From Cloacibacterium normanense (GTDB lineage: Bacteria; Bacteroidota; Bacteroidia; Flavobacteriales; Weeksellaceae): a DNA stretch of 64,000 nucleotides. The notes below the pieces were generated by a model. It was not told the origin of the DNA. It searched no databases and saw only the letters and a program-made list of their open reading frames with translations. The stretch is from positions 310,001-374,000 of the forward strand of contig NZ_CP034157.1 in the NCBI RefSeq assembly GCF_003860565.1. Reading direction: 5' to 3'. Positions within the stretch are counted from its first letter, which is position 1. Each line of letters opens with the position of its first letter. The position numbers were made by a program, and so were the translations under genes. Shown piece by piece: positions 7,247-56,182 of the stretch.

Positions 7247-9031
7247 TTATTCTCCCGAAATAATATGGTGAAGGCTTTGTTTTAACATTTCTAACTGAGC
7301 TTTTTTGTCATCAATTTTATCAAAAGTATCTTTCAATAAAGGATTATCACGAGATACTTTGCCAAAGAAGCCTAAGTTGTTTTCTAATTTTACAATTTCT
7401 GCTTCTAAATCAGCCACTTGATTTTTGATTTTTCTAGCTTTATCAGTCAATTGAGATTCAGTAAGACCTTCTTCTTTCAAATCAAATTCATTGATTTTGT
7501 TCAGTCTTAATTTCTCTCTCATCGTTTTATTAAACTCAGTATTGATAGCCATTTTATCTCTTGGTACTTTTCCGATGTTGTTCCAAGCAGTTTTAATGTT
7601 TTCAATTTTTTCTACGCTTCCTTCTTCGTCGCCAATTTCTTTTAATTCATCTAAAAGCGCACGTTTTTGTCTGTAATTTTCTTTCCAGTCGTCTGTTACA
7701 GCATTGTTTTTAGTTCTGTAATTATTAAAAAACGTGTTGCAAGCTTCACGGAAATCATCCCAAACTTTATTGGTCATACTTCTAGGAACGTGACCTATTT
7801 TTTTCCAGTCTTCTTGTAATTTTTTGAACAATGGAACTGCAATTTCCCAATCTTCAGAATTCATATTATCTTGAGCGGTTTGTATAAGCTTCAGTTTTTC
7901 TTCTAAATTGGTATGCTGAGAGTTTTTAAGGCCTTTGTAGAATTCATTTTTCTTCGCGTTGAAAGCTCTAAGCGCTAATTTGAATTCGTTCCAGTTTTGG
8001 TTAGAAATTTTTCTAGGAACGCTTCCTAATTTTAAGAAATCTGCTCTTAGACTTTCTACGGTGTTGATGGCGTTTTGCCAATAATTATGATTCGGAGCTT
8101 TATCAGGGGAAGTCAGTTTTTTAATCGTATCGATGATTTGATTTTTCTTCTCAAGATTAGCTTGCTGTTCGCCATCGATTACGGCTAATAATTCTGATTT
8201 TCTTTCGTGAATTTTATTAGAAATTTCTTTGAATTCTTCCCAAGTTTTATCACGAAATTCTTCAGCAACTGGTTCTGCTTCTTCTTTCCAAAGCTTGTGC
8301 AAAAACTGTAATTCGTTTAATGCTTTTTGTACTACAGGTTCGTTTTGTAATTCTTTGGCTCTGGCAATAATATGCTGTCTTTTTTCTAGATTATGTGCAT
8401 ATTCTTGCTCTCTGTATTCTTTATTTAAGTCTAACATTTGATAGAAATTATTCAAATGGTAGAAATAATTATTGTTAAGATTTTTGAATTCTGATTTTGC
8501 TACTTGTCCAGCGTTGCTCCATTCTTCTTTAATTTCTCTGATGGCGCGGAAAAGATTGGTGTTCGGTTCAGAATGCGTGTAAAGATTTTTTAATTTTTCT
8601 ATAATTGAGATTCTCTTTTCGAGATTGTCTTTTTGCTCAGATTCTTGTTTTCTGTGGAAAACATCATATTTTTCTTTGAAAATATTGCTCAGTGCAGAAA
8701 TTTTTGATTGAAGAGGATGTTCATAATGTGCATCTGCTTCTTTTTGGTCTTCACTTTCTAGGTTTATTTTGTGAAGAAGCATTTCTTTTACTGCATTAAA
8801 TTTTTTATGATTAGCTCCTGAATCTTCTGCATTAATCAGTGCTTCTAACTTAGTCATTAATTCTCCCGAAGTCATTTTTTCATGTTCGTGGTGTTCTACC
8901 ATATCATGAGTTTCTTCTTCATGAACTTCTGAATCATGGCTTTCTTGAGGAGCAACAGATTGATTAGCAGTTTCTTCGTTTGGATTTACAATGTTCTCTT
9001 GAGCTTCAGAATTAGGGTTATCTGTAATCAT
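7247..9031 (-). CDS. DUF349 repeat protein
   Basis: A 594-residue, highly charged, largely alpha-helical protein. An acidic, His-rich N-terminal region (about 1-60) is followed by at least five DUF349-type repeats, each with a W..F or W..A core (for example VARSEFKNLN-like, GSVPRKISNQNWNEFK, GHVPRSMTNKVWDDFR, GKVPRDKMAINTEF), and a coiled-coil C-terminus (about 530-590). No catalytic motif is visible. DUF349 proteins of this size are common in Bacteroidota; their role is not settled. It is followed without a gap by a secreted protein gene and then ribD. Confidence 0.85.
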   Translation of the reverse strand: MITDNPNSEAQENIVNPNEETANQSVAPQESHDSEVHEEETHDMVEHHEHEKMTSGELMTKLEALINAEDSGANHKKFNAVKEMLLHKINLESEDQKEADAHYEHPLQSKISALSNIFKEKYDVFHRKQESEQKDNLEKRISIIEKLKNLYTHSEPNTNLFRAIREIKEEWSNAGQVAKSEFKNLNNNYFYHLNNFYQMLDLNKEYREQEYAHNLEKRQHIIARAKELQNEPVVQKALNELQFLHKLWKEEAEPVAEEFRDKTWEEFKEISNKIHERKSELLAVIDGEQQANLEKKNQIIDTIKKLTSPDKAPNHNYWQNAINTVESLRADFLKLGSVPRKISNQNWNEFKLALRAFNAKKNEFYKGLKNSQHTNLEEKLKLIQTAQDNMNSEDWEIAVPLFKKLQEDWKKIGHVPRSMTNKVWDDFREACNTFFNNYRTKNNAVTDDWKENYRQKRALLDELKEIGDEEGSVEKIENIKTAWNNIGKVPRDKMAINTEFNKTMREKLRLNKINEFDLKEEGLTESQLTDKARKIKNQVADLEAEIVKLENNLGFFGKVSRDNPLLKDTFDKIDDKKAQLEMLKQSLHHIISGE

Positions 9032-9205
9032 AGCAAATTAATTTTAAAAGTAATATGCTTTTTCAAACACTTTTTTTGAATGTTTGAACGCATTTCGGCA
9101 CTAAATTAAGGGTTTTTTATGAAATATGCAATTTTTTTGAAAGCGATAATTGTGCTCACTTTTAAAAAAATACATCAGTCTAAATCTTTGATGGCTCAGA
9201 AGTGT

Positions 9206-9940
9206 TTACTGTTCTTCATTCCAAATTTCCCAAGCTTTTTCGGCTTGTTGTTCTAGCATGAAATAACCGTTAATGGTTTTTGCACCTTTTTCGGCAGCAT
9301 TTTTTAAAAATTTAGAAAGAGTAGGGTTGTAAATTAAATCGATAACGAGATGATTTTCTGTAATATTTTCAAATGGGAAGTGAAGCGTTTCTTCTACATT
9401 AGGAAAAGTCCCTACTGGTGTACATTGTATGATGATGAGGTTTTCTAGGACTTGATTTTCAGTGAGATTCTGATAATTAATTTCTGTAGTTCTAGAAACG
9501 GTAATAAAAGGAATATTATTCTTTTTCAATACAAATTGAACGGCTTTTGCAGCACCGCCATTTCCTAAAACAATGGCAGATTTTTGGTGTGGTTTTTTGT
9601 GCAGAAGAAGTGTTTTTTCAAATCCAAATGCATCAGTATTGAAACCTTTTGTTTTTCCGTTTTTGATGGAAATACAGTTGATGGCGCCTATTTCTTGAGC
9701 CTCTTCGCTCAATTCATCTAAATAAGGAATAATTTGCTCTTTGTATGGAATGGTCACATTAAGTCCTACAAGATTTTCAGTTTGAAAAATAGCAGGAATA
9801 TTCTGAAGATTTTCGATGTCAAATACTTCATAGGAATGGTCTTTCAAGAAAAGTTTTTGAAATTTCTGTTCGAAATATTTTTTTGAAAACGAGTAGGAAA
9901 TATTTCTTCCTACCAAACCTAATTTTACTGATTTTTCCAT
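9206..9940 (-). CDS. aroE: shikimate dehydrogenase
   Basis: A 244-residue enzyme of the shikimate pathway that reduces 3-dehydroshikimate with NADPH. The N-terminal substrate domain shows GLVGRNISYSFSKKYF (shikimate-binding Ser residues) and GLNVTIPYKEQI with the catalytic Lys; the NADP domain has VLGNGGAAKAV at about 124-134. NTDAFGF and VIDLIYNP are further family motifs. It is short compared with the roughly 270 residues of Escherichia coli AroE but typical for Flavobacteriia. It is flanked by terminators and looks monocistronic. Confidence 0.95.
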   Translation of the reverse strand: MEKSVKLGLVGRNISYSFSKKYFEQKFQKLFLKDHSYEVFDIENLQNIPAIFQTENLVGLNVTIPYKEQIIPYLDELSEEAQEIGAINCISIKNGKTKGFNTDAFGFEKTLLLHKKPHQKSAIVLGNGGAAKAVQFVLKKNNIPFITVSRTTEINYQNLTENQVLENLIIIQCTPVGTFPNVEETLHFPFENITENHLVIDLIYNPTLSKFLKNAAEKGAKTINGYFMLEQQAEKAWEIWNEEQ

Positions 9941-9958
9941 AATTCAAAGGTAATAAAA

Positions 9959-9982
9959 AAGGCTGGAAATGTTTCCAGCCTT
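9959..9982 (-). terminator. terminator of the endonuclease I gene
   Basis: An 11-bp stem AAGGCTGGAAA/TTTCCAGCCTT with a 2-base loop; on the minus strand a run of six T follows directly. It lies between the nuclease stop at 10002 and the aroE start. Confidence 0.9.
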
Positions 9983-10001
9983 GCAATGATTTGTATCAAG
10001 T

Positions 10002-11795
10002 TTATTCTACTAAAAATTTGTACGAATTATTATCAAATTTTAATAGATACATTCCTTTAGTAGTATTTTTAAGTGAAATGAAATTTTTATTGCTAAAAGG
10101 CTTTTCAATTACTTGAACTAAAATTCCATTTACGTTATAAATTTCTACTCTTTTAATTTTTTCAATATTTTTTCCTGTTACATAAAGGGTATTATTTTTA
10201 ACAGGATTAGGGTAGATGCTGAACTTGTTAACTGTTGTTTCATCTGTTCCTAAGCCGTTATAGCAAGTCCAACTTAAATCATCAAAAGCCACTCTGTTAG
10301 AGGTTGTGCTATTATTTTGTATGCTAATCGTTACATTCCCAGAAACATTGATGTTTGAAATGGTAGTGGTAGTTACAGTGTCTGAGTATGGGATTGTTCC
10401 TTTTTCAACACCATTAATAAATAATTTAAAACTTCCATTTGTTCCTGAAAATTTTAATTGGGTTTTAATGGTTAAGCTACTAATTCCTCCTGATATAGTT
10501 GAAGAACTAAGCGTGCCATTTCTTACAGTAATTGCTTTATTATTAATTGTTTGGTCGGATCTAGAATCCGTTGCTGTCCATGTGATTTCATTGTTGTTCC
10601 ATGTTACAGTTTTATAGGTGTTAACAGCTCCGCTAACTCCTTCAAAGTCTTCTGTTCCACAGCTTGTAGTAGAGCCGCCATCATTGCCGCCAGTATTCTC
10701 TGTGGTGGTTCCTGTTGTGGTATTGCTTTGGCTAGATGTGTTTCCAGCTGCATCTTTAGCTTTTACATAAAAAGAATAAGTTGTAGATGGATTAAGACCC
10801 GTTACAGTAATACTGTTAGAAGAGGAAGAAGTTTTAAGCGTTCCGTCTAAATATATGTCATAAGTAGCTACCATAATGTTATCTGTAGAAGCGGTCCAAG
10901 ATAAAGATATTGTACTAGAGGTGCTTCCTGTAACTATTAGGTTAGTTGGTGTAGAAGGAGCTTCTGTATCTGGAGTAGTAGTTCCCCATATTAAAGCTAC
11001 ATATTCTGGATGGTCTATAAATGGGTTTCTATTGCCTTGAAACGAATAAGCGGCATTGTTTCTGTCAATTTCTTTTTCAGATACGGGGTCATTTGTGTGC
11101 CATTCTTTTAGAACTGCCAATTCCCAAGCTTCTACTCCAGGAAATGCAGAATTTGTTAAAATATCATTGTCTTTAAAAGAAGATAGTTTAGATTCATATC
11201 TTGTTGCAAAATATAAAATCATTCTTGCGACGTCTCCTTTAAATTCATCAATGGGTTCAAAAACAGTTCCACTATAGTTAGGTGATGCGCTAGTTCCTCT
11301 TTTAGAGCCGTTTTCTGAAATGAAATTTGCAGATCCTACTTTTCCGAATGGAAAATTACTTCTATATCCGTTGACTTTTCCATCAGTTGGGACAATATGG
11401 TGTATATCAGAAACCATAGGAGATGCAGAATTGAAGTATCCTTGTGGGAAAATGTGCTCTCTGTTATAGCAATCACCTTCTACTTTATAACTGCCACATT
11501 GTTTAGAGCCATGTTGATAGACATATGGGTCTGTTCCTTTAGGATTTTCTGAATATATGTCTAAAACAGAACCGTCTTTTTCGTAATAATTATCTGAATC
11601 CGTTGATGGATATCCGTTGTATAGGTTATCATAAGATTTGGTTTGGTGCCCACTTGTAATGATTTGGCTAAGTTTTGTTTTAAGTGCAGCGCCTGTTAAA
11701 CCAGTTGTTCCGTCATAGTAACCAGTAGGAATTTGAGCAAAGATATTTGCTACAGAAAATAGTAGTCCTACAATAAGTAAAGTTTTAATCTTCAT
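10002..11795 (-). CDS. secreted endonuclease I with fibronectin III and T9SS sorting domain
   Basis: A 597-residue secreted nuclease. After a signal peptide (1-20) comes an EndA/endonuclease I domain to about residue 275, with CYNREHIFPQGYF, VSDIHHIVPTDGKVNGYRSN and PFG, which fit the His-metal nuclease site. A fibronectin type III domain follows (about 280-365, SWTASTDNIMVATYDIYLDG), then a beta-rich domain (about 380-510) and a T9SS type A sorting domain ending in GMYLLKFDNNSYKFLVE. It probably degrades extracellular DNA or RNA for nutrition or biofilm remodelling. The gene has its own terminator. Confidence 0.93.
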   Translation of the reverse strand: MKIKTLLIVGLLFSVANIFAQIPTGYYDGTTGLTGAALKTKLSQIITSGHQTKSYDNLYNGYPSTDSDNYYEKDGSVLDIYSENPKGTDPYVYQHGSKQCGSYKVEGDCYNREHIFPQGYFNSASPMVSDIHHIVPTDGKVNGYRSNFPFGKVGSANFISENGSKRGTSASPNYSGTVFEPIDEFKGDVARMILYFATRYESKLSSFKDNDILTNSAFPGVEAWELAVLKEWHTNDPVSEKEIDRNNAAYSFQGNRNPFIDHPEYVALIWGTTTPDTEAPSTPTNLIVTGSTSSTISLSWTASTDNIMVATYDIYLDGTLKTSSSSNSITVTGLNPSTTYSFYVKAKDAAGNTSSQSNTTTGTTTENTGGNDGGSTTSCGTEDFEGVSGAVNTYKTVTWNNNEITWTATDSRSDQTINNKAITVRNGTLSSSTISGGISSLTIKTQLKFSGTNGSFKLFINGVEKGTIPYSDTVTTTTISNINVSGNVTISIQNNSTTSNRVAFDDLSWTCYNGLGTDETTVNKFSIYPNPVKNNTLYVTGKNIEKIKRVEIYNVNGILVQVIEKPFSNKNFISLKNTTKGMYLLKFDNNSYKFLVE

Positions 11796-11849
11796 AATGT
11801 TAAAGTAATAAAAAGGGACACAAAGTTAGCATAATTATCAATAGGATAA

Positions 11850-13064
11850 TTAATTATTTTCAATTATGTTCTCTTTATTAATTTTAGAAAAAATCCAAGA
11901 AACAGAAATTCCAAAGAAAAGTCCTATTAAAGCCACATAGAAATAATTAGGCCAGAAAATTTTAACAGGAAAAGGTAACGTTTCAGTAGCTTTGAAAATG
12001 CCAGTCTGTATTTGGATAACACAAATAATCGTCCCCAAAATCAATCCAGAGATTACCCCAAACAGTACAATAAGTAAACCAGTGTTGAAATAAGTCTTTC
12101 TTAAATCACTAATTGTAAAACCTAAAGAAATCAATGATTTAGCTTGATCTTTTTTATCCAATTGAAGAATAATAATAGCGCCTGCAAGGTTAAACGTAGT
12201 AATAAAAATCACCAAAGCAAAGATGAGGTAAATCATCAGTTTTTCGGTGTTAATCATTTTCCAGAAGGCAGCGTTTTCTTCTGCTTTTGTTTTTATGGTA
12301 ACTTGATTGCCGAGTTTATTTTGTAAATCTTCTTTTATAGCATTTGCTTTTTCAGGATTTTTTAGTTTTATGGCAATCTCGTAAGCTGAGTTTTTAGGCA
12401 AGTTCAGTAACTCCGAAGTCAGTTCAAGCGGAGCGATAATATAATTGTTCAGTTGGTCATTTCCAGGGAAAATTCCAGTAACGTAAATGTCTCTTTTATT
12501 GAAAATATCTTCTTCTTTATTGATGATTCCTTTACCAGGTTTTGGCATGAAAAGCGTAGCTACGTTTACATCATTAGCTACGGGAATTGCCAATCTGTTG
12601 TTCAGTTGAGCTTCCATAATCACTTCATTCATAAATTTAAATGAAGGATAACTTCCGTAGAAAATATTTTTGTCAATAGGATTCACTTTTACATAAGCAG
12701 AGTCTACGCCTCTTATGTAAGCAATTTCTCCTGTGTTTTTGTAATCGATATAGACTTTTTCTTCAATCAATTTAGAAAAATGACTGATTTCGTTTTCAGA
12801 TTTCAGGGTAGAAGTTACTTTTTGAATATTGGGAATAACTTTTCCTTGAGTGCTTTTTAGGGTAAGATCTGCATGAAGATTAGAAATAAAATCCTTGTTG
12901 AGGTCTTCTAATCCAGAAAAAACCGAAATAATAATAAACATGGCGGCTACCGCTACCATCATAGCAAAAGCAGCCAATCCTGTAATAAAACTTACAGCTT
13001 GGCTTCCTTTTTTAGCAATGAGATATCTTCTCGCGATATAAAAAGCGGTATTTCCTTTGGCCAT
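11850..13064 (-). CDS. ABC transporter permease, LolC/LolE-like
   Basis: A 404-residue permease with the FtsX/MacB architecture: a transmembrane helix at about 25-50, a large periplasmic domain (50-270), then three helices (about 275-300, 325-350 and 370-390). YIARRYLIAKKGSQAVSFITG at the N-terminus and SLGFTISDLRKTYFNTG before the second helix are typical of lipoprotein-releasing permeases. The partner ATPase is not in this window. The gene starts 3 bases from the rbfA stop, so the two are one transcript. Confidence 0.88.
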   Translation of the reverse strand: MAKGNTAFYIARRYLIAKKGSQAVSFITGLAAFAMMVAVAAMFIIISVFSGLEDLNKDFISNLHADLTLKSTQGKVIPNIQKVTSTLKSENEISHFSKLIEEKVYIDYKNTGEIAYIRGVDSAYVKVNPIDKNIFYGSYPSFKFMNEVIMEAQLNNRLAIPVANDVNVATLFMPKPGKGIINKEEDIFNKRDIYVTGIFPGNDQLNNYIIAPLELTSELLNLPKNSAYEIAIKLKNPEKANAIKEDLQNKLGNQVTIKTKAEENAAFWKMINTEKLMIYLIFALVIFITTFNLAGAIIILQLDKKDQAKSLISLGFTISDLRKTYFNTGLLIVLFGVISGLILGTIICVIQIQTGIFKATETLPFPVKIFWPNYFYVALIGLFFGISVSWIFSKINKENIIENN

Positions 13065-13067
13065 TTT

Positions 13068-13430
13068 TTATAAAATAGGATTATCTCCCAGACCTTTTAG
13101 TTCTTTTTCTATACGTTCTACATCATCTAATGTAGTGTCTAAATAGAAATTAAGTTCAGGAATAATTCGCACTTGTTTTGCCATTTTCTGGCCAATAAAA
13201 TTTCTGTAGAAAGACTTATTTTCGTCTATCTCCTTCATAATTGGCGTTCTAAATTCTTGCGGAAAGATGCTCAAATAAATTTTAGCAATGCTTAAATCAG
13301 CCGTTACCTTTACATCAGAAACGGTGATTAGAAAATTTTGTTTGCTCTCTGAAGCGAGTTTTCTAAAAAGTTCAGCAAAATCTTCTTGAATAATCTGTGC
13401 TACTTTTCTTTGTCTGTTACTTTCATTCAT
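13068..13430 (-). CDS. rbfA: ribosome-binding factor A
   Basis: A 120-residue protein with the RbfA KH-like fold: RQRKVAQIIQEDFAELFRK at the N-terminus, VTVSDVKV-like strand ITVSDVKVTADLSIAKIYLS, and RIIPELNFYLDTTLDDVERIEK at the end. RbfA helps mature the 30S subunit at low temperature. Length is normal. It is the first gene of a short transcript with the permease gene. Confidence 0.95.
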   Translation of the reverse strand: MNESNRQRKVAQIIQEDFAELFRKLASESKQNFLITVSDVKVTADLSIAKIYLSIFPQEFRTPIMKEIDENKSFYRNFIGQKMAKQVRIIPELNFYLDTTLDDVERIEKELKGLGDNPIL

Positions 13431-13463
13431 GTTGCAAATTTAGTATTTTTGTTTGAGATTTTG

Positions 13464-13612
13464 GGCGTGTCCTTTTCTTTTTGCCAATCGCAAGGTCTTG
13501 ACCATAAAAAGAAAAGGTCGGTATTCGGCTCCCACTTTTTTCTAAATTTTTTATCAAAACCTATGCCCTTGCATAAAAATTTAGAAAAAGAGTTCCGCCT
13601 ACTCCCTCACGC
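13464..13612. repeat. double-hairpin intergenic repeat (REP-A family, copy 1)
   Basis: Two hairpins in tandem. The first has a perfect 12-bp stem at 13471-13482 and 13506-13517. The second has a near-perfect 16-bp stem around 13534-13552 and 13575-13590. G/C-rich flanks (GGTCGGTATTCGGCTCCC and TTCCGCCTACTCCCTCACGC) contrast with the A/T-rich stems. The layout matches the elements near 20.35, 24.97 and 33.43 kb. It fills most of the gap between rbfA and the epimerase gene. Confidence 0.7.
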
Positions 13613-13658
13613 AAACTAAGATTTTAATAGAAATTAAGAAAACAATTACCACATCATC

Positions 13659-14057
13659 ATGAAAATAGAACACTTAGGAATCGCCATTAAAAGTCTAGAA
13701 ACATCAGACAATCTTTTTGCAAAACTTCTTGGGAAAAGCAGTTACAAACAAGAATCAGTAGAAAGAGAAGGCGTAACTACTTCTTTTTATCAATTAGGAG
13801 AAAGCAAAATAGAACTTTTGGAAGCCACAAATCCAGAAAGTCCTATCGCGAAGTTTATCGACAAAAAAGGAGAAGGAATTCACCATATTGCTTTCGGAGT
13901 AGAAGATATTAGAGCAGAAATAGAAAGATTAAAAGCAGAAGGATTTGTTTTTATTTCCGAAGAGCCCAAAGATGGTGCAGATAATAAGTTGGTGGTTTTC
14001 TTACATCCTAAGTCTACAAATGGAGTTTTGGTAGAATTGTGTCAAGAAAAACCTTAA
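13659..14057 (+). CDS. mce: methylmalonyl-CoA epimerase
   Basis: A 132-residue vicinal-oxygen-chelate protein. The metal ligands of the family are visible: His5 in KIEHLGIAIKS, a Glu near residue 53 in KIELLEA, His in GIHHIAFGVEDI (about residue 75) and Glu in VLVELCQEK at the end. It interconverts the methylmalonyl-CoA epimers between propionyl-CoA metabolism and succinyl-CoA. The mutase genes are not in the window. It is followed directly by the tRNA promoter. Confidence 0.93.
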   Translation: MKIEHLGIAIKSLETSDNLFAKLLGKSSYKQESVEREGVTTSFYQLGESKIELLEATNPESPIAKFIDKKGEGIHHIAFGVEDIRAEIERLKAEGFVFISEEPKDGADNKLVVFLHPKSTNGVLVELCQEKP

Positions 14058-14065
14058 TTTTTTTT

Positions 14066-14094
14066 TTGAATTTTCCGAAAAAATCTTACATTTG
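14066..14094 (+). promoter_or_regulatory. promoter of the CAT-anticodon tRNA
   Basis: A TTTG (-33) at about 14065-14068 and TACATTTG (-7, TAnnTTTG) at 14087-14094 with an 18-base spacer, as in the Bacteroidota consensus. The tRNA begins about 40 bases downstream. Confidence 0.7.
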
Positions 14095-14134
14095 CACACC
14101 CAATTGAAATAAAGATATTTTATCATAAATGTTT

Positions 14135-14208
14135 GGCCTTGTAACTCAGTTGGTTAGAGTAGCTGACTCATAATCAGCAAGTCCTTGGTTCGAGCCCAAG
14201 CTGGGCCA
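14135..14208 (+). tRNA. tRNA with CAT anticodon (Met elongator or Ile2)
   Basis: A 74-base cloverleaf: acceptor 5' strand GGCCTTG, D-arm ACTC/GAGT, anticodon stem GCTGA/TCAGC around loop CTCATAA (anticodon CAT), T-arm CTTGG/CCAAG with loop TTCGAGC, acceptor 3' strand CTGGGCC and discriminator A. CCA is not fully encoded (ACA follows). The acceptor contains a T5-G68 wobble and a T6-T67 mismatch. Its GGCC/GGCC ends recall Ile2, while the D-arm fits elongator Met, so the amino acid is left open. The 3' half from the anticodon onward is repeated after the next gene (14530-14614). Confidence 0.9.
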
Positions 14209-14209
14209 C

Positions 14210-14236
14210 AAAATCCTCAGAATTTCTGAGGATTTT
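14210..14236 (+). terminator. tRNA terminator, first copy
   Basis: A 13-bp stem beginning AAAATCCTCAG with a 1-base loop, followed by GTTATTTTTG. An identical hairpin recurs at 14585-14611 after the GIY-YIG gene. Confidence 0.85.
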
Positions 14237-14251
14237 GTTATTTTTGTATAA

Positions 14252-14533
14252 ATGAAACATTTTGTTTATATATTATTTTCTGAAACAGCCAATAAATATT
14301 ATATTGGCGAGACAAATAATTTAGAAAGAAGATTAGAAGAGCATTTAAGCCATTTTTTTGAAAATTCTTTTACAAAAATTGCGGAAGATTGGGAATTGTT
14401 TTTAAAAATAGAGTGTAAAGATATTTTTGAAGCAAGAAAAATAGAGCGCCACATAAAGAAAATGAAAAGCAAAAAATATTTAGAAAACCTCAAAAAATAT
14501 CCAGAAATTATTAAAAAATTAAAAGAAAAATAA
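14252..14533 (+). CDS. small GIY-YIG nuclease inserted next to a tRNA
   Basis: A 93-residue single-domain GIY-YIG endonuclease-like protein of the UvrC N-terminal/YhbQ type. It has VYIL at 5-8, YYIG at 16-19, Arg26-Arg27 in NLERRLEEH, and the probable catalytic Glu60 in FEARKIERHIKKMKSKKYLE. The tail is Lys-rich. There is no second DNA-binding domain. The gene begins 12 bases after the tRNA terminator. Its TAA stop is the first bases of a second copy of the tRNA 3' half. This layout suggests a mobile or homing-like unit that uses the tRNA gene as its target; that is inference. The nuclease family call itself is firm. Confidence 0.9.
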   Translation: MKHFVYILFSETANKYYIGETNNLERRLEEHLSHFFENSFTKIAEDWELFLKIECKDIFEARKIERHIKKMKSKKYLENLKKYPEIIKKLKEK

Positions 14534-14614
14534 TCAGCAAGTCCTTGTCCCGATAACTATCGGGACGAGCCCAAGCTGGGCCACAAAATCCTCAGAATTT
14601 CTGAGGATTTTGTT
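14530..14614 (+). pseudogene. displaced tRNA 3' half plus terminator copy
   Basis: Positions 14530-14547 repeat 14170-14187 exactly (18 bases, from inside the anticodon). Positions 14567-14614 repeat 14192-14239 exactly (48 bases, the end of the T-arm, the acceptor 3' strand and the terminator hairpin). Between them the four bases GTTC of the T-arm are replaced by a 19-base insert that is nearly all palindrome. No 5' half is present, so it cannot be a functional tRNA. The hairpin at 14585-14611 probably still terminates the GIY-YIG transcript. Confidence 0.9.
14547..14566. repeat. short perfect palindrome inside the tRNA fragment
   Basis: A 9-bp stem GTCCCGATA/TATCGGGAC around AC. It replaces the conserved GTTC of the T-loop in the displaced tRNA copy. 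From memory, palindromes of the type CCCGATAnnTATCGGG are frequent between genes in Flavobacteriia; I could not check this. Confidence 0.75.
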
Positions 14615-14639
14615 TTTTGAGAGAAATTTTTTTAACCCT

Positions 14640-14664
14640 AATTGTAATTAAATTTGTTACAATT
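14640..14664. promoter_or_regulatory. operator-like inverted repeat of the Rrf2 gene
   Basis: A perfect inverted repeat AATTGTAA-N9-TTACAATT. It covers the TTTG (-33) element at 14653-14656, which stands exactly 19 bases before the TATCTTTG box at 14676-14683. This is the expected place for autorepression. A near-identical site lies before the next gene (15117-15141). Confidence 0.7.
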
Positions 14665-14691
14665 GAAAATTTACATATCTTTGCATCAGAA

Positions 14692-15102
14692 ATGAACAAT
14701 ACTAGATTTTCCACAGCGCTTCATATTATGACTATTCTTGGTTCTAAACCAGAAGAATGGCATACTTCTGAGTGGCTAGCTGGAAGCATTAATGTGAATC
14801 CGGTAGTCGTAAGAAAAGAAATTTCTGTATTGAGGGAAGCTGGTTTGGTAGAGTGTAAAAAAGGTAAAGAAGGCGGCACTAGATTAGGGAAAAACCTCAA
14901 CCAAATTACAATTGCCGAAATTTACAATGCTGTAAAAAACTCAGAGATTTTAGGTAAAAAAAATCAACATCCTAATCCACAATGTGAAGTAGGAAAAGTG
15001 ATTAATCAGCATTTAGATCTTCTTTTTTCTGAAACAGATGAGGTAGTGGTGAATTTCTTAAAAGAAAAATCTTTGAAAAATTTTATAGAACAATTCAAAT
15101 AA
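14692..15102 (+). CDS. Rrf2-family transcriptional regulator (YwnA-like)
   Basis: A 136-residue winged-helix regulator started at MNNTRFSTALHIM; upstream codons are promoter DNA. The helix-turn-helix lies at about 27-52 (SEWLAGSINVNPVVVRKEIS) and the wing is CKKGKEGGTRLGK. Two cysteines (55 and 98) are too few for the three-Cys iron-sulfur site of IscR or NsrR, so a thiol or ligand switch is more likely. The next gene is an NAD(P)-binding reductase, the same pairing as Bacillus ywnA-ywnB. Matching inverted repeats precede both genes. The start lies 8 bases after the -7 box, so the mRNA leader is very short. Confidence 0.88.
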   Translation: MNNTRFSTALHIMTILGSKPEEWHTSEWLAGSINVNPVVVRKEISVLREAGLVECKKGKEGGTRLGKNLNQITIAEIYNAVKNSEILGKKNQHPNPQCEVGKVINQHLDLLFSETDEVVVNFLKEKSLKNFIEQFK

Positions 15103-15116
15103 AATTTTTTAAGTAT

Positions 15117-15141
15117 AAATGTAACATAAATTATTACAATT
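15117..15141. promoter_or_regulatory. operator-like inverted repeat before the reductase gene
   Basis: AAATGTAA-N9-TTACAATT, one base different from the site at 14640-14664 and with the same 9-base spacer. It ends 14 bases before the reductase ATG. It is inferred to be a second binding site of the adjacent Rrf2 regulator. Confidence 0.65.
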
Positions 15142-15155
15142 TAAATTATAGAAAA

Positions 15156-15809
15156 ATGAAAAAAGTCGCAGTCATTGGTGCAACAGGTTTTGTTGGCACT
15201 CAAGTAGTAATAGAATTAGCAAATAGAGGATATTTCGTAAATGCTTTGGCTAGAAATACTTCTAAAATAGAAGAATCAGAAAATGTAAAAGCAGTAACTG
15301 CAGATATTTACAATACAGCTGAATTATCAGAAATCCTAAAAGGAAATGACGCTGTGATTAGCGCATTTAATCCGGGTTGGACGAATCCTAATATTTTCGA
15401 AGATTTCTTAAAAGGAGCGACTAGCATAGAAAAAGCGGTAGAAGAATCTGGTGTAAAAAGATTTATTACAGTAGGTGGAGCAGGAAGTTTATACATTGCT
15501 GAAAACCTTCAATTAATAGATACTCCTGAATTTCCAGCGGAGATTAAACCAGGCGCAGAAGCAGCCAGACAATATTTAGAAATCATTAAAAAGAATGAGA
15601 ATCTAGAATGGACTTTCTTTTCTCCAGCCATAGAAATGCATCAAGGAACAGCAGGTGTAAGAAAGGGAACTTACAGAACGGCGCTAGAAAATCCTGTTTT
15701 TGATGAAAACGGAAGAAGTGTTCTTTCTGTAGAAGATGTAGCCGTAGCTTTGGTAGACGAATTAGAAAATAATCAGTTTGTAAAACAAAGATTTACTGCG
15801 GCTTATTAA
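15156..15809 (+). CDS. NAD(P)-binding reductase (atypical SDR, YwnB-like)
   Basis: A 217-residue single-domain Rossmann protein. The nucleotide-binding motif VIGATGFVGTQVV is at the N-terminus (about 5-17), followed by ALARNTSKIE (adenine-ribose and phosphate region) and ITVGGAGSLYI in the substrate half. It belongs to the atypical SDR/NmrA-like group of quinone or unknown-substrate reductases. It is controlled, by inference, by the Rrf2 protein encoded just upstream, suggesting a response to electrophiles or oxidants. Substrate unknown. Confidence 0.87.
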   Translation: MKKVAVIGATGFVGTQVVIELANRGYFVNALARNTSKIEESENVKAVTADIYNTAELSEILKGNDAVISAFNPGWTNPNIFEDFLKGATSIEKAVEESGVKRFITVGGAGSLYIAENLQLIDTPEFPAEIKPGAEAARQYLEIIKKNENLEWTFFSPAIEMHQGTAGVRKGTYRTALENPVFDENGRSVLSVEDVAVALVDELENNQFVKQRFTAAY

Positions 15810-15851
15810 TTCATTAAATATTTTGAAACTGATTCACTAGAGTCAGTTTTT

Positions 15852-15995
15852 TTATTGGTATTCGTCTCTTATTTCTTTACTTTTTGCAAAGCAAACTGGC
15901 GAAGAATTTTCATTGATAATGATTTCCTTCTTTTCCTTGGAATTCTTTTTTGTAGACTTCTGTTTGTCTTTTTTAGGAACTTTGTCTTTTTTCAT
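15852..15995 (-). CDS. small lysine-rich protein, unknown function
   Basis: A 47-codon frame, ATG ending at 15995. The first half is almost all Lys, Asp, Ser and Thr (MKKDKVPKKDKQKSTKKNSK); the second half is SPVCFAKSKEIRDEYQ with one Cys. The N-terminus looks disordered and nucleic-acid-binding; the C-terminus looks like a short folded or binding motif. It lies between convergent units. I do not recognise it; coding is supported by the codon pattern and the tidy C-terminal motif only. Confidence 0.5.
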   Translation of the reverse strand: MKKDKVPKKDKQKSTKKNSKEKKEIIINENSSPVCFAKSKEIRDEYQ

Positions 15996-16026
15996 GACCC
16001 AAAATTTTCACTAAAGTTAAATAAAA

Positions 16027-16052
16027 AAAGCATCCAATCAAGTGGATGCTTT
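16027..16052 (-). terminator. terminator of the M23 peptidase gene
   Basis: A 10-bp stem AAAGCATCCA/TGGATGCTTT with a 6-base loop; on the minus strand a T run follows. It lies between the M23 stop at 16075 and the small ORF start at 15995. Confidence 0.8.
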
Positions 16053-16074
16053 CTTCAAATTTTATATTTCGATT

Positions 16075-16965
16075 TTATAAATTCAGAAATAATTTAGGGT
16101 TTACAGGCGTATTGTTCTTATGAACTTCGTAATGCAAATGTGGACCAGTACTTCTTCCAGAATTACCAGATTGTGCAATTACTTCTCCTGCTTTTACATT
16201 TTGGTTGGCTTTTACGTTAATTTTAGAAAGGTGGGCGTAAAGCGTTGCTAAACCGTTGCCATGACTGATGATTACACAGCTTCCGTAGCCACTTTTTTGA
16301 CCAGCAAAAATCACTTTTCCCGTAGCGGTACACATTACATCGCTACCATAACTTACGCCATAATCTATTCCTTTGTGGAATTGCATTTGGTCTTTTTCAG
16401 CAGGAGCTGCGTTTTTTGATGCTACGTTTACGTTACTTTTGTTGATTACATTTCCAGCGCTGTCTTTTTCTATTTTTTCAGATGAAATAGCAAGAGGTCT
16501 TGCAGAAGCGAGTAGGATTTTCTTAGACGGAATAGGATTTTTTCTCATCCCGAAATTAGAAGATAGAAAGCCATTGTTTATAGGATGTCCAACTGGAACT
16601 TGTTGTAAACGTTTTTCTAATTCTACGAGATATTCAGAATATCTAGAACTCTGATTGGACAGATAAACCGAACTAGATAAGCTGTCTCTAGATAGAGCTT
16701 CTATGCTTAGATTAGAGGCGTTTTTTGCCTTTAAATAATTGTTGATTGTTCTTACTGTATTGTCTACAGCGGCTAAATCATTTTTTAATTTAAAGAAATC
16801 TAAGCTGTCTTTTTGGGTGTTGATTTTTACTAAATTGACTTGATAGTTTTTGTCATCTTTTTCTGAATATAATTTTGCAATAACAAAACTTTGCAGAAGG
16901 ATAACGAAAAGAAGAGCGCCCATAAATAGCTGAACATTCTTCTTTTTTATAAAAAATTTCTTCAT
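16075..16965 (-). CDS. M23 family metallopeptidase
   Basis: A 296-residue membrane-anchored peptidoglycan peptidase. A transmembrane helix lies at about 13-31, then a coiled or linker region to about 190, then the LytM domain with HKGIDYGVSYGSDV (zinc ligands His and Asp), VIISHGNGLATLYAHL and GRSTGPHLHYEVH (HxH zinc and catalytic motif). All zinc ligands are present, so it is probably an active endopeptidase rather than an EnvC-like activator. It acts in the periplasm. It has its own terminator. Confidence 0.92.
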   Translation of the reverse strand: MKKFFIKKKNVQLFMGALLFVILLQSFVIAKLYSEKDDKNYQVNLVKINTQKDSLDFFKLKNDLAAVDNTVRTINNYLKAKNASNLSIEALSRDSLSSSVYLSNQSSRYSEYLVELEKRLQQVPVGHPINNGFLSSNFGMRKNPIPSKKILLASARPLAISSEKIEKDSAGNVINKSNVNVASKNAAPAEKDQMQFHKGIDYGVSYGSDVMCTATGKVIFAGQKSGYGSCVIISHGNGLATLYAHLSKINVKANQNVKAGEVIAQSGNSGRSTGPHLHYEVHKNNTPVNPKLFLNL

Positions 16966-17223
16966 TACTTTTTTCTCAGTTTTTCAATTTTTAGCGACGC
17001 CAAAATTAATTAAAATATTTTAAATCAATGTTTTTGCTCATCCAAAAACGATGAATTATGATAAAAATTATGCCAAAGTATTGTTAATAAAAGTATAAAA
17101 TTGTTAAAAATAATGGATTATGATTGCTTTTATTATACTTGAAACTCAGTAGGTAAAGTCAATCTGTGAAATCTATTTTTGTTAATATGATTTTTTTAAG
17201 GTTTAGCTTCTCACTATAATTTG

Positions 17224-17231
17224 TATCTTTG
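17224..17231 (+). promoter_or_regulatory. -7 box of gpsA
   Basis: TATCTTTG, a perfect TAnnTTTG, 22 bases before the gpsA ATG. This supports the ATG at 17254 over the upstream TTG at 17221. Confidence 0.65.
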
Positions 17232-17253
17232 TTTTTCTACCAAATTTTTTAAA

Positions 17254-18264
17254 ATGGCTAAAAAGAAAGGCAAAACATTGCCAACTGTTGGGGTTGTAGG
17301 AAGCGGCAGTTTCGCTACGGCAATTGTAAAAATGCTATTAGAAAATGCAAAATTGGTGCATTGGTGCGTAAGAAATGAGTTTGTAAAAGGAGCTCTAGAA
17401 TTGCGCGGACATAATCCTAATTACCTTACTGCGGTTGCTTTTGATGTAAAAAAACTAAAAATCACTACAGATATTAATGAGTTGGTTTCTGCTTGTGATA
17501 TCGTAGTTTTAGCAACTCCTTCTATCTATCTTGCAGATGCAATAGAAAAAATGACTTGCGATTACGAAGGGAAATTATTCGTTTCCGCAATCAAAGGTAT
17601 TGTTCCTAAACATAATGATGTGGTAGCGCATTATTTAAGAGATGTTTTTAAAATTGGTTTCAGAAGTCAAGCGGTAATTGCAGGGCCTTGTCATGCAGAA
17701 GAAGTGGCGATGGAAAGATTGTCTTATCTTACGATTGCAGCAGCAGAAAAAGAACATATTGATGCGCTTAGAGAACTTTTTACTTCGGATTATATCAAGG
17801 TAAGCTGTTCCAAAGATATTTTAGGCAATGAATACAGTGCTATTCTTAAAAATATTTATGCTATTGCAGCAGGAATTGCAAGTGGATTAGGTTATGGTGA
17901 TAACTTTAATGCGGTTTTGGTTTCTAATGCGATTAGAGAAATGGAATTGTTTTTAGATGCAATCTATCCTGAGCACAGAGAAGTGAATGATAGTGCATAT
18001 TTAGGAGATTTATTGGTAACTGCTTATTCACTTTTTTCTAGAAATAGAAATTTAGGAAATCTTATCGGTAAAGGTTATACCGTGAAATCTGCGGTACAAT
18101 CTATGAGCATGGTTGCAGAAGGGTATTACGCCACTCGTGGAATTTACGAAATTGCTTACGAAAAGAAATTGAAAACGCCAATCATCAACACAGTTTTCAG
18201 TATTTTATACGAAGGAAAAGATGCCGAAAAACAATTTAAAAAATTAACGGAAAAATTAACGTAA
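17254..18264 (+). CDS. gpsA: NAD(P)H-dependent glycerol-3-phosphate dehydrogenase
   Basis: A 336-residue enzyme started at MAKKKGKTLPTV; the codons further upstream overlap the promoter (TATCTTTG at 17224-17231). The Rossmann motif is GVVGSGSFATAIV (about 13-25). VSAIKGIV, IAGPCHAEEV, and GNEYSAILKNIYAIAAGIASG with the catalytic Lys are family signatures. It makes sn-glycerol-3-phosphate from dihydroxyacetone phosphate for membrane lipid synthesis. Confidence 0.95.
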   Translation: MAKKKGKTLPTVGVVGSGSFATAIVKMLLENAKLVHWCVRNEFVKGALELRGHNPNYLTAVAFDVKKLKITTDINELVSACDIVVLATPSIYLADAIEKMTCDYEGKLFVSAIKGIVPKHNDVVAHYLRDVFKIGFRSQAVIAGPCHAEEVAMERLSYLTIAAAEKEHIDALRELFTSDYIKVSCSKDILGNEYSAILKNIYAIAAGIASGLGYGDNFNAVLVSNAIREMELFLDAIYPEHREVNDSAYLGDLLVTAYSLFSRNRNLGNLIGKGYTVKSAVQSMSMVAEGYYATRGIYEIAYEKKLKTPIINTVFSILYEGKDAEKQFKKLTEKLT

Positions 18265-42464: not shown

Positions 42465-42484
42465 CTCCCGATGGATTTCGGGAG
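42465..42484 (-). terminator. terminator of the CBS protein gene
   Basis: A stem CTCCCGA/TCGGGAG followed on the minus strand by TTTTTT. It lies between the CBS stop at 42514 and hmgA. Confidence 0.85.
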
Positions 42485-56160: not shown

Positions 56161-56182
56161 AATCCCGAAACTTTTCGGGATT
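56161..56182 (+). terminator. terminator of the SurA-like gene
   Basis: A 10-bp stem AATCCCGAAA/TTTCGGGATT with a T run. The rest of the gap 56183-56451 shows no gene; a TATCTTTA box lies at 56431-56438. Confidence 0.9.

Follow-up and report, generated by a model that had tools for sequence, protein, structure and literature searches.

According to the sections consulted of a study of fungal mitochondria, mORFs occur at atp6 in Allomyces and at atp6, atp9, cox2, and nad3 in Glomus (PMC3630166). In these cases an endonuclease ORF arrives with a replacement 3' end for the host gene, the native end is displaced downstream, and the mORF at atp9 encodes a GIY-YIG enzyme (PMC3630166). In phage T4, as described in the parts of the report consulted, the free-standing GIY-YIG gene SegB lies between tRNA-Arg and tRNA-Ile and has the tRNA intergenic region as its target (PMC2988022). 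A 2006 survey, also consulted in part, identifies stand-alone prokaryotic Slx1-like proteins as the minimal GIY-YIG form (PMC1564403). Judging by titles and abstract openings, we recognized no description of GIY-YIG genes rebuilding bacterial tRNA genes among the open-licence PMC papers listed.

Here we analyzed a window of 64,000 nucleotides from Cloacibacterium normanense (contig NZ_CP034157.1; genome of 2.76 Mb in one contig), in which a GIY-YIG gene lies between an intact tRNA gene with anticodon CAT and a second, partial copy of that tRNA (Table 1). In our assessment, an element of about 360 bp, a member of a Bacteroidota-wide family of minimal mobile elements, probably inserted into this tRNA(CAT), rebuilt it, and displaced the native 3' part.

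Table 1. Features of the tRNA(CAT) locus in window coordinates.
Feature	Position	Strand	Basis
Intact tRNA(CAT), probably rebuilt	14135-14209	+	ARAGORN; Rfam; 37-nt genome search
Inserted 360-bp block: tRNA 3' part, terminator, and GIY-YIG gene	14170-14529	+	Single gap against four congeners
tRNA 3' part, probably brought by the insert and restoring the tRNA	14170-14209	+	Direct repeat; alignment to congeners
Terminator-like hairpin 3' of the rebuilt tRNA	14208-14238	+	Perfect 15-bp inverted repeat, then T-rich sequence
GIY-YIG nuclease gene (predicted), 93 aa	14252-14533	+	ORF; Pfam match; conserved residues
Displaced, probably native tRNA 3' half, piece one (18 nt)	14530-14547	+	Identical to 14170-14187 (18/18)
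Perfect palindrome (hairpin) replacing the T-loop GTT	14548-14565	+	TCCCGATAACTATCGGGA
Displaced, probably native tRNA 3' half, piece two, to the tRNA 3' end	14566-14584	+	Direct repeat of 14191-14209
Terminator-like hairpin 3' of the displaced half, probably native position	14583-14613	+	Repeat; congener alignment

ARAGORN labels the intact gene as tRNA-Met from its anticodon; by its anticodon arm, set against that of E. coli tRNA-Ile2, we take it to be probably tRNA-Ile2. With up to 3 mismatches allowed, a 37-nt stretch of this tRNA has a single occurrence in the genome, which has at least 39 Rfam tRNA matches (150 of 240 candidates scored). ARAGORN, the inverted repeat, and the Pfam match agree with the initial annotation that an intact CAT tRNA, a terminator, and a 93-codon GIY-YIG gene follow in this order, and the TAA stop of the gene (14531-14533) indeed falls inside the tRNA-derived stretch. 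That annotation also described an exact second tRNA half with perfectly matching arms. The repeat downstream of the gene does run from inside the anticodon through the terminator and its first 18 nt match throughout, but it is not exact: the second direct repeat (14191-14243 and 14566-14618) is 98% identical over 53 nt, and the spacing between the copies jumps from 360 to 375 where the 18-bp palindrome TCCCGATAACTATCGGGA replaces GTT. The hairpin in the displaced half had been overlooked. The stretch that bears it folds as DNA far above shuffled sequences (z -4.65), compared with z -1.11 for its intact counterpart. At up to 2 mismatches the exact 18-mer is found in a single place of the genome, which rules it out as an abundant dispersed repeat there. 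Two imperfect relatives with 3 mismatches each lie in the window at 42466-42483 and 56163-56180, and perfect inverted repeats of 12 and 15 bp stand between divergent rbfA-like and epimerase-like genes (13471-13589).

The GIY-YIG gene is the sole gene of the insert. Its product matches Pfam GIY-YIG (PF01541) with E = 5.4e-14 and 52.7 bits (cut-off 22.6), and Y17, G19, R27, and E65, which we take to be the catalytic residues, are invariant in a 73-row alignment; by profile and conserved residues, the predicted protein belongs to the GIY-YIG nuclease superfamily. Among solved proteins, those nearest to it by profile are nucleases of the UPF0213 and SLX1 kinds (7 of 7 among the matches listed; PDB 1zg2 and 1ywl). 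Family proteins have about 80–100 aa and therefore little room for a separate DNA-binding domain, so that recognition of DNA structure is suspected. A search of 50,697 phage records with the window protein gave no match at E 1e-4, and one of a plasmid collection with the protein of another locus, L117, gave none at E 1e-6; these searches lend no support to a phage or plasmid vehicle.

Genes for tRNAs are usual sites of integrase-type genomic islands and of group I introns, and the locus might be the remnant of such an island or of an intron with its own endonuclease. Besides the nature of the site, this reading can draw on a match of the protein to a group I intron endonuclease that stays below the cut-off (28 bits vs 56). 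Against it, integrase and transposase families gave no match in the ten neighboring proteins scanned (window 7250-18261), in line with the initial annotation that no integrase is nearby, and no Rfam intron family matched over 13600-15200 at E up to 1. ARAGORN reads the tRNA as uninterrupted, with no group I intron core there. Breakpoints vary between tRNAs, moreover, and the compact unit recurs. We reject an integrase element on the ten neighbors scanned and a group I intron on the missing Rfam match and the uninterrupted tRNA; a remnant of either kind seems to us scarcely credible.

Comparison with relatives reveals empty sites. Exactly one 360-bp block, together with the palindrome, is absent from four congeners in base-by-base alignments, 14170-14529 being one of several equivalent placements of the block. 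Because these four congeners hold base-level empty sites, the window arrangement is not due to chance. The same locus is present in 6 of 6 other genomes of the genus searched, including these four, with no GIY-YIG gene found. The initial annotation had proposed that the tRNA 3' half, terminator, and GIY-YIG gene were inserted as one unit, and the empty locus in six congeners supports this. More widely, a CAT tRNA is present at 24 of 30 epimerase loci fetched from relatives. Two of these 24 are occupied, i.e. the window and L020 in another genus, 21 have no GIY-YIG match (the six genus genomes among them), and one ends just past the tRNA.

Occupied and empty alleles of one site are thus found in close relatives, and the tRNA-fMet locus provides a second example. 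This locus, adjoined by a sua5-like gene, is occupied in three congeners; G006 and the genome of the window have it empty. The tRNA is inverted in G004, and none was found there in G005. Both at fMet and in the window the rebuilt tRNA is unchanged, and only flanking sequence or the displaced half differs. At the tRNA-Arg(TCT) locus, no GIY-YIG gene precedes the next gene in G002, G006, G010, and G017, while the window genome carries three tandem GIY-YIG genes, each followed by a pseudo-tRNA-Arg. All 4 stand-alone GIY-YIG genes found by domain search in the window genome are tRNA-linked; a fifth match lies within a 616-aa frame, presumably UvrC by its length. In three congeners (L001, ~1170-1228; L082; L081), a pseudo-tRNA-Arg whose anticodon arm is replaced by a hairpin also lies 5' of the intact tRNA-Arg; two of these congeners have no GIY-YIG gene there.

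A second tRNA half in genomes without the GIY-YIG gene, which the initial annotation held to speak against insertion, was not seen at the window locus. It does occur elsewhere: the tRNA-fMet locus of G010 (L060, 3.6 kb) has hairpin-bearing displaced parts and no GIY-YIG match, and we read these parts as decayed copies. They stand in tandem at 1000-1510 of that locus, two near-complete and one diverged.

At two independent loci, the terminators reveal which way the insertion went. The two empty genomes define the native terminator at fMet; in the three occupied congeners it stands beyond the displaced half, and the rebuilt tRNA carries a different, foreign one. At L020, the window-orthologous locus, three tandem copies have one terminator type between them and another after the last copy, the latter resembling that of empty G010. 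From this order it follows that the element carries a new tRNA 3' part with its own terminator; at both loci the substitute end is carried and the native end displaced. In the window the direction is not readable because both terminators are alike, and it is from the polarity at fMet and L020 that 14170-14209 would be the carried half.

An explanation without mobility would be that the tRNA 3' end was duplicated locally in tandem next to a GIY-YIG gene already resident there, and that drift preserved the arrangement. Terminators that are alike, as in the window and in 35 of the 67 loci compared, would fit a duplication, as would the tracking of the nuclease tree by host family. However, the nuclease gene and the repeat are jointly absent from the four aligned congeners, the terminators differ in 20 of the 67 loci (12 are intermediate), the native one lies beyond the displaced half at fMet and L020, and the arrangement recurs at many kinds of tRNA. 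We regard a duplication of this sort as improbable. The insertion model is strongly supported.

As the initial annotation had anticipated, many further cases were found in which a tRNA gene precedes a similar gene and a partial tRNA. Each of the 100 genomes of the family contains a GIY-YIG match of one kind or another. Among loci that are the best-scoring of the matches listed and no random sample, and with a profile built from 32 seed proteins that included tRNA-linked ones, tRNA-like sequence lies within 260 nt of 46 of 128 GIY-YIG ORFs (105 loci), compared with 7 of 128 at control offsets; 35 of these 46 have it on both sides. Across the phylum, an alignment built from 23 tRNA-linked proteins finds matches (E 1e-8) in 158 of 247 genomes, which represent 86 of 122 genera, and the 30 loci read have an intact tRNA upstream (22), downstream (1), or neither (7). 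We also read a named collection, consisting of the best 80 of 238 relatives, in which Arg and Val dominate because the query was of the Arg/Val type. An intact tRNA lies 15–241 nt upstream in 66 of these 80 loci, and at least 12 nt of it are repeated downstream in 58 of the 66; at the other 14, some of them cut by contig ends, no upstream tRNA was found. Host order could be assigned for 75 of the 80, all to orders of Bacteroidota.

With the window protein itself as query, 38 of 395 genomes of the order have a match, and its relatives are tRNA-linked at 27 of 29 loci read (three of the 29 duplicate earlier loci), with 4 Ile2-like, 8 Asn, 5 Phe, 5 Ala, 3 Val, and 2 Pro. Overall, target genes include Val, Arg, fMet, Asn, Asp, Ala, Phe, and Ile2-like tRNAs. 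Among 213 arrays, the tRNA is upstream in 111 and only downstream in 5; after removal of repeats, 205 distinct stretches remain, of which 105 have it upstream and 5 only downstream. One of the latter (L250) is doubtful, as ARAGORN reports a stop anticodon. Many copies are tandem, with copy-to-copy distances of 323–412 nt in 58 of 71. A family with this arrangement at tRNA genes is common in Bacteroidota, often as tandem arrays. A mirror form, i.e. a displaced 5' half with hairpins, then the nuclease gene and an intact tRNA, was read by eye at L106 and L185 and judged from blast hits alone at L123.

The pseudo-tRNA with altered arms that adjoins the nuclease in many loci would also be expected of a tRNA-directed toxin, defence, or decoy system, in which the nuclease acts on tRNA or other RNA and the pseudo-tRNA serves as RNA decoy or antitoxin. 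In many loci, however, the displaced part lacks a 5' half and so cannot adopt a tRNA fold, and whole units including the nuclease are tandemly duplicated, some copies carrying stops (L135, L155). Such a system is, in our estimate, very improbable.

The sites at which these tRNAs are broken vary. In many Val and Arg cases the displaced fragment starts close to the acceptor arm or the D arm; at fMet the start lies in the anticodon stem (5' strand), and in the window it lies inside the anticodon. The anticodon-loop specificity put forward in the initial annotation is not supported, given these differing starts, and the 5' halves displaced at L106 and L185 speak against it as well. In a tree of 213 nucleases, tRNA linkage changes 24 times (63–78 when shuffled), tRNA isotype 28 times among 116 labelled rows (58–71), and host family 13 times (31–39, n = 71). 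Nuclease clades go with kinds of tRNA, but a large share of the pattern comes from descent within families. As host family also tracks the tree, much of the element distribution may be vertical, and we dropped the tree as proof of long-range transfer.

Hairpins are found in most displaced halves. A perfect palindrome absent from the intact tRNA occurs in 79 of 104 displaced halves (arms of at least 6, at least 3 GC, loop up to 5), compared with 5.4 expected from mononucleotide shuffles and 5 of 99 control stretches taken 600 nt on. With repeats removed, the 104 become 99 distinct halves, 74 of them with a hairpin; seven of the 111 arrays were left out as too short or without a 9-nt block. Among 104 hairpin instances, 97 have T as the first base and A as the last, and the pattern TCC..GGA is found in 73. 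Where the displaced tRNA shows a gap, it affects the anticodon arm (62), the T arm (14), or another part (2), and 7 halves have none. Such a hairpin, standing in for an arm of the displaced tRNA, belongs to the regular parts of the element. The idea that it guards against loss of the insert was weakened by the many Arg loci that keep 33 nt of unbroken tRNA repeat beyond the hairpin.

Short palindromes that accompany an enzyme or land inside genes are known from REP palindromes with their RAYT enzymes, which are tyrosine (HUH) enzymes, and from Rickettsia palindromic elements. By analogy, the hairpin could be the mobile signal, with nuclease and cognate palindrome forming a pair and tRNA arms serving as mere docking sites, hit because they are natural hairpins. 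The frequency and shared ends of the hairpins favor this reading, as does the structure-specific nature of the UPF0213 and SLX1 nucleases nearest to the protein. In addition, the nuclease tree requires 3 changes between the two types of hairpin (9–12 when shuffled, n = 74), though hairpin type is confounded with tRNA kind, and inverted flank matches of at least 12 nt occur at 26 of 74 non-tRNA GIY-YIG genes, compared with 42 of 740 shuffled pairs. By contrast, direct flank matches are as common as inverted ones (27 of 74), 25 of the 104 displaced halves have no such hairpin, and the exact window palindrome occupies one place in its genome. The looser pattern TCCCGAN{2,8}TCGGGA is modest in number, 0–24 per genome and 11 in the window genome, against mostly 0–1 for the reversed control (up to 7 in one genome). 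On balance we find it rather unlikely that the hairpin is the mobile signal and the tRNA arms mere docking sites. The tracking of nuclease by hairpin type within one tRNA was dropped as an argument, given that the CAT class mixes elongator Met and Ile2-like genes, which we told apart by sequence features. Palindromic repeats often flank those GIY-YIG genes that are not at tRNAs (L039, L044, L097, L110, L175, L179, and others), for example GTCATTGCGAGGAGC..GACGAAGCAATC and CTGAGCGGAGTCGAAG.

As we picture the insertion, the element would comprise a tRNA 3' part that serves as replacement, a terminator, and a small gene for a GIY-YIG nuclease. The nuclease would cut within the tRNA gene or close to it, and the element would come in when the break is repaired from a copy that bears it, as in homing. 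The replacement part would complete the tRNA and the native 3' part would be pushed downstream with its terminator. Arrays may then grow, and copies be lost, by recombination between the repeated tRNA ends. We guess that this minimal nuclease, similar to SLX1 and UPF0213, recognizes DNA structure and that the hairpin would be its cognate site. It is conceivable, and we put it forward tentatively, that a structure-reading minimal GIY-YIG nuclease and its cognate DNA hairpin constitute a new class of mobile element, a GIY-YIG counterpart of REP/RAYT. The tRNA genes would offer it a safe harbour, since the element restores the gene that it interrupts, and those GIY-YIG genes of the same genomes that lie away from tRNAs and are flanked by palindromes would be the same system without a tRNA.

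If the insertion model is true, some of the smallest DNA units able to spread by themselves are present in many genomes of Bacteroidota. They would target tRNA genes and be tolerated there since every element supplies the part of the tRNA that is otherwise lost. Tandem pseudo-tRNA arrays would be explained, and target finding by a GIY-YIG domain without a DNA-binding arm would become testable. The annotation of tRNAs would be affected as well.

Compared with described systems, the element differs from REP/RAYT in having a GIY-YIG enzyme, with hairpins at tRNA arms and no RAYT (tyrosine) enzyme in the window insert. Like the UPF0213 and SLX1-like proteins, the window protein is a minimal GIY-YIG domain without an added DNA-binding domain; the parts of the survey consulted describe no link of those proteins to tRNA genes or to an element (PMC1564403). 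With SegB it shares a free-standing GIY-YIG gene in a tRNA region, but SegB belongs to a phage, and the parts of its report consulted describe no rebuilt tRNA or displaced half (PMC2988022). The likeness to mORFs is that the tRNA element supplies a substitute gene end and displaces the native one. The hosts of mORFs, however, are mitochondrial protein genes, and their ORFs are larger, whereas here the host is a tRNA gene on a bacterial chromosome; no tRNA target, displaced-end hairpin, or tandem array is described in the sections consulted (PMC3630166). The element thus works like a mORF, and we do not file it as one, given its new host, new kind of gene, and extra hairpin part. If true, a strategy of fungal mitochondria extends to bacteria and to RNA genes.
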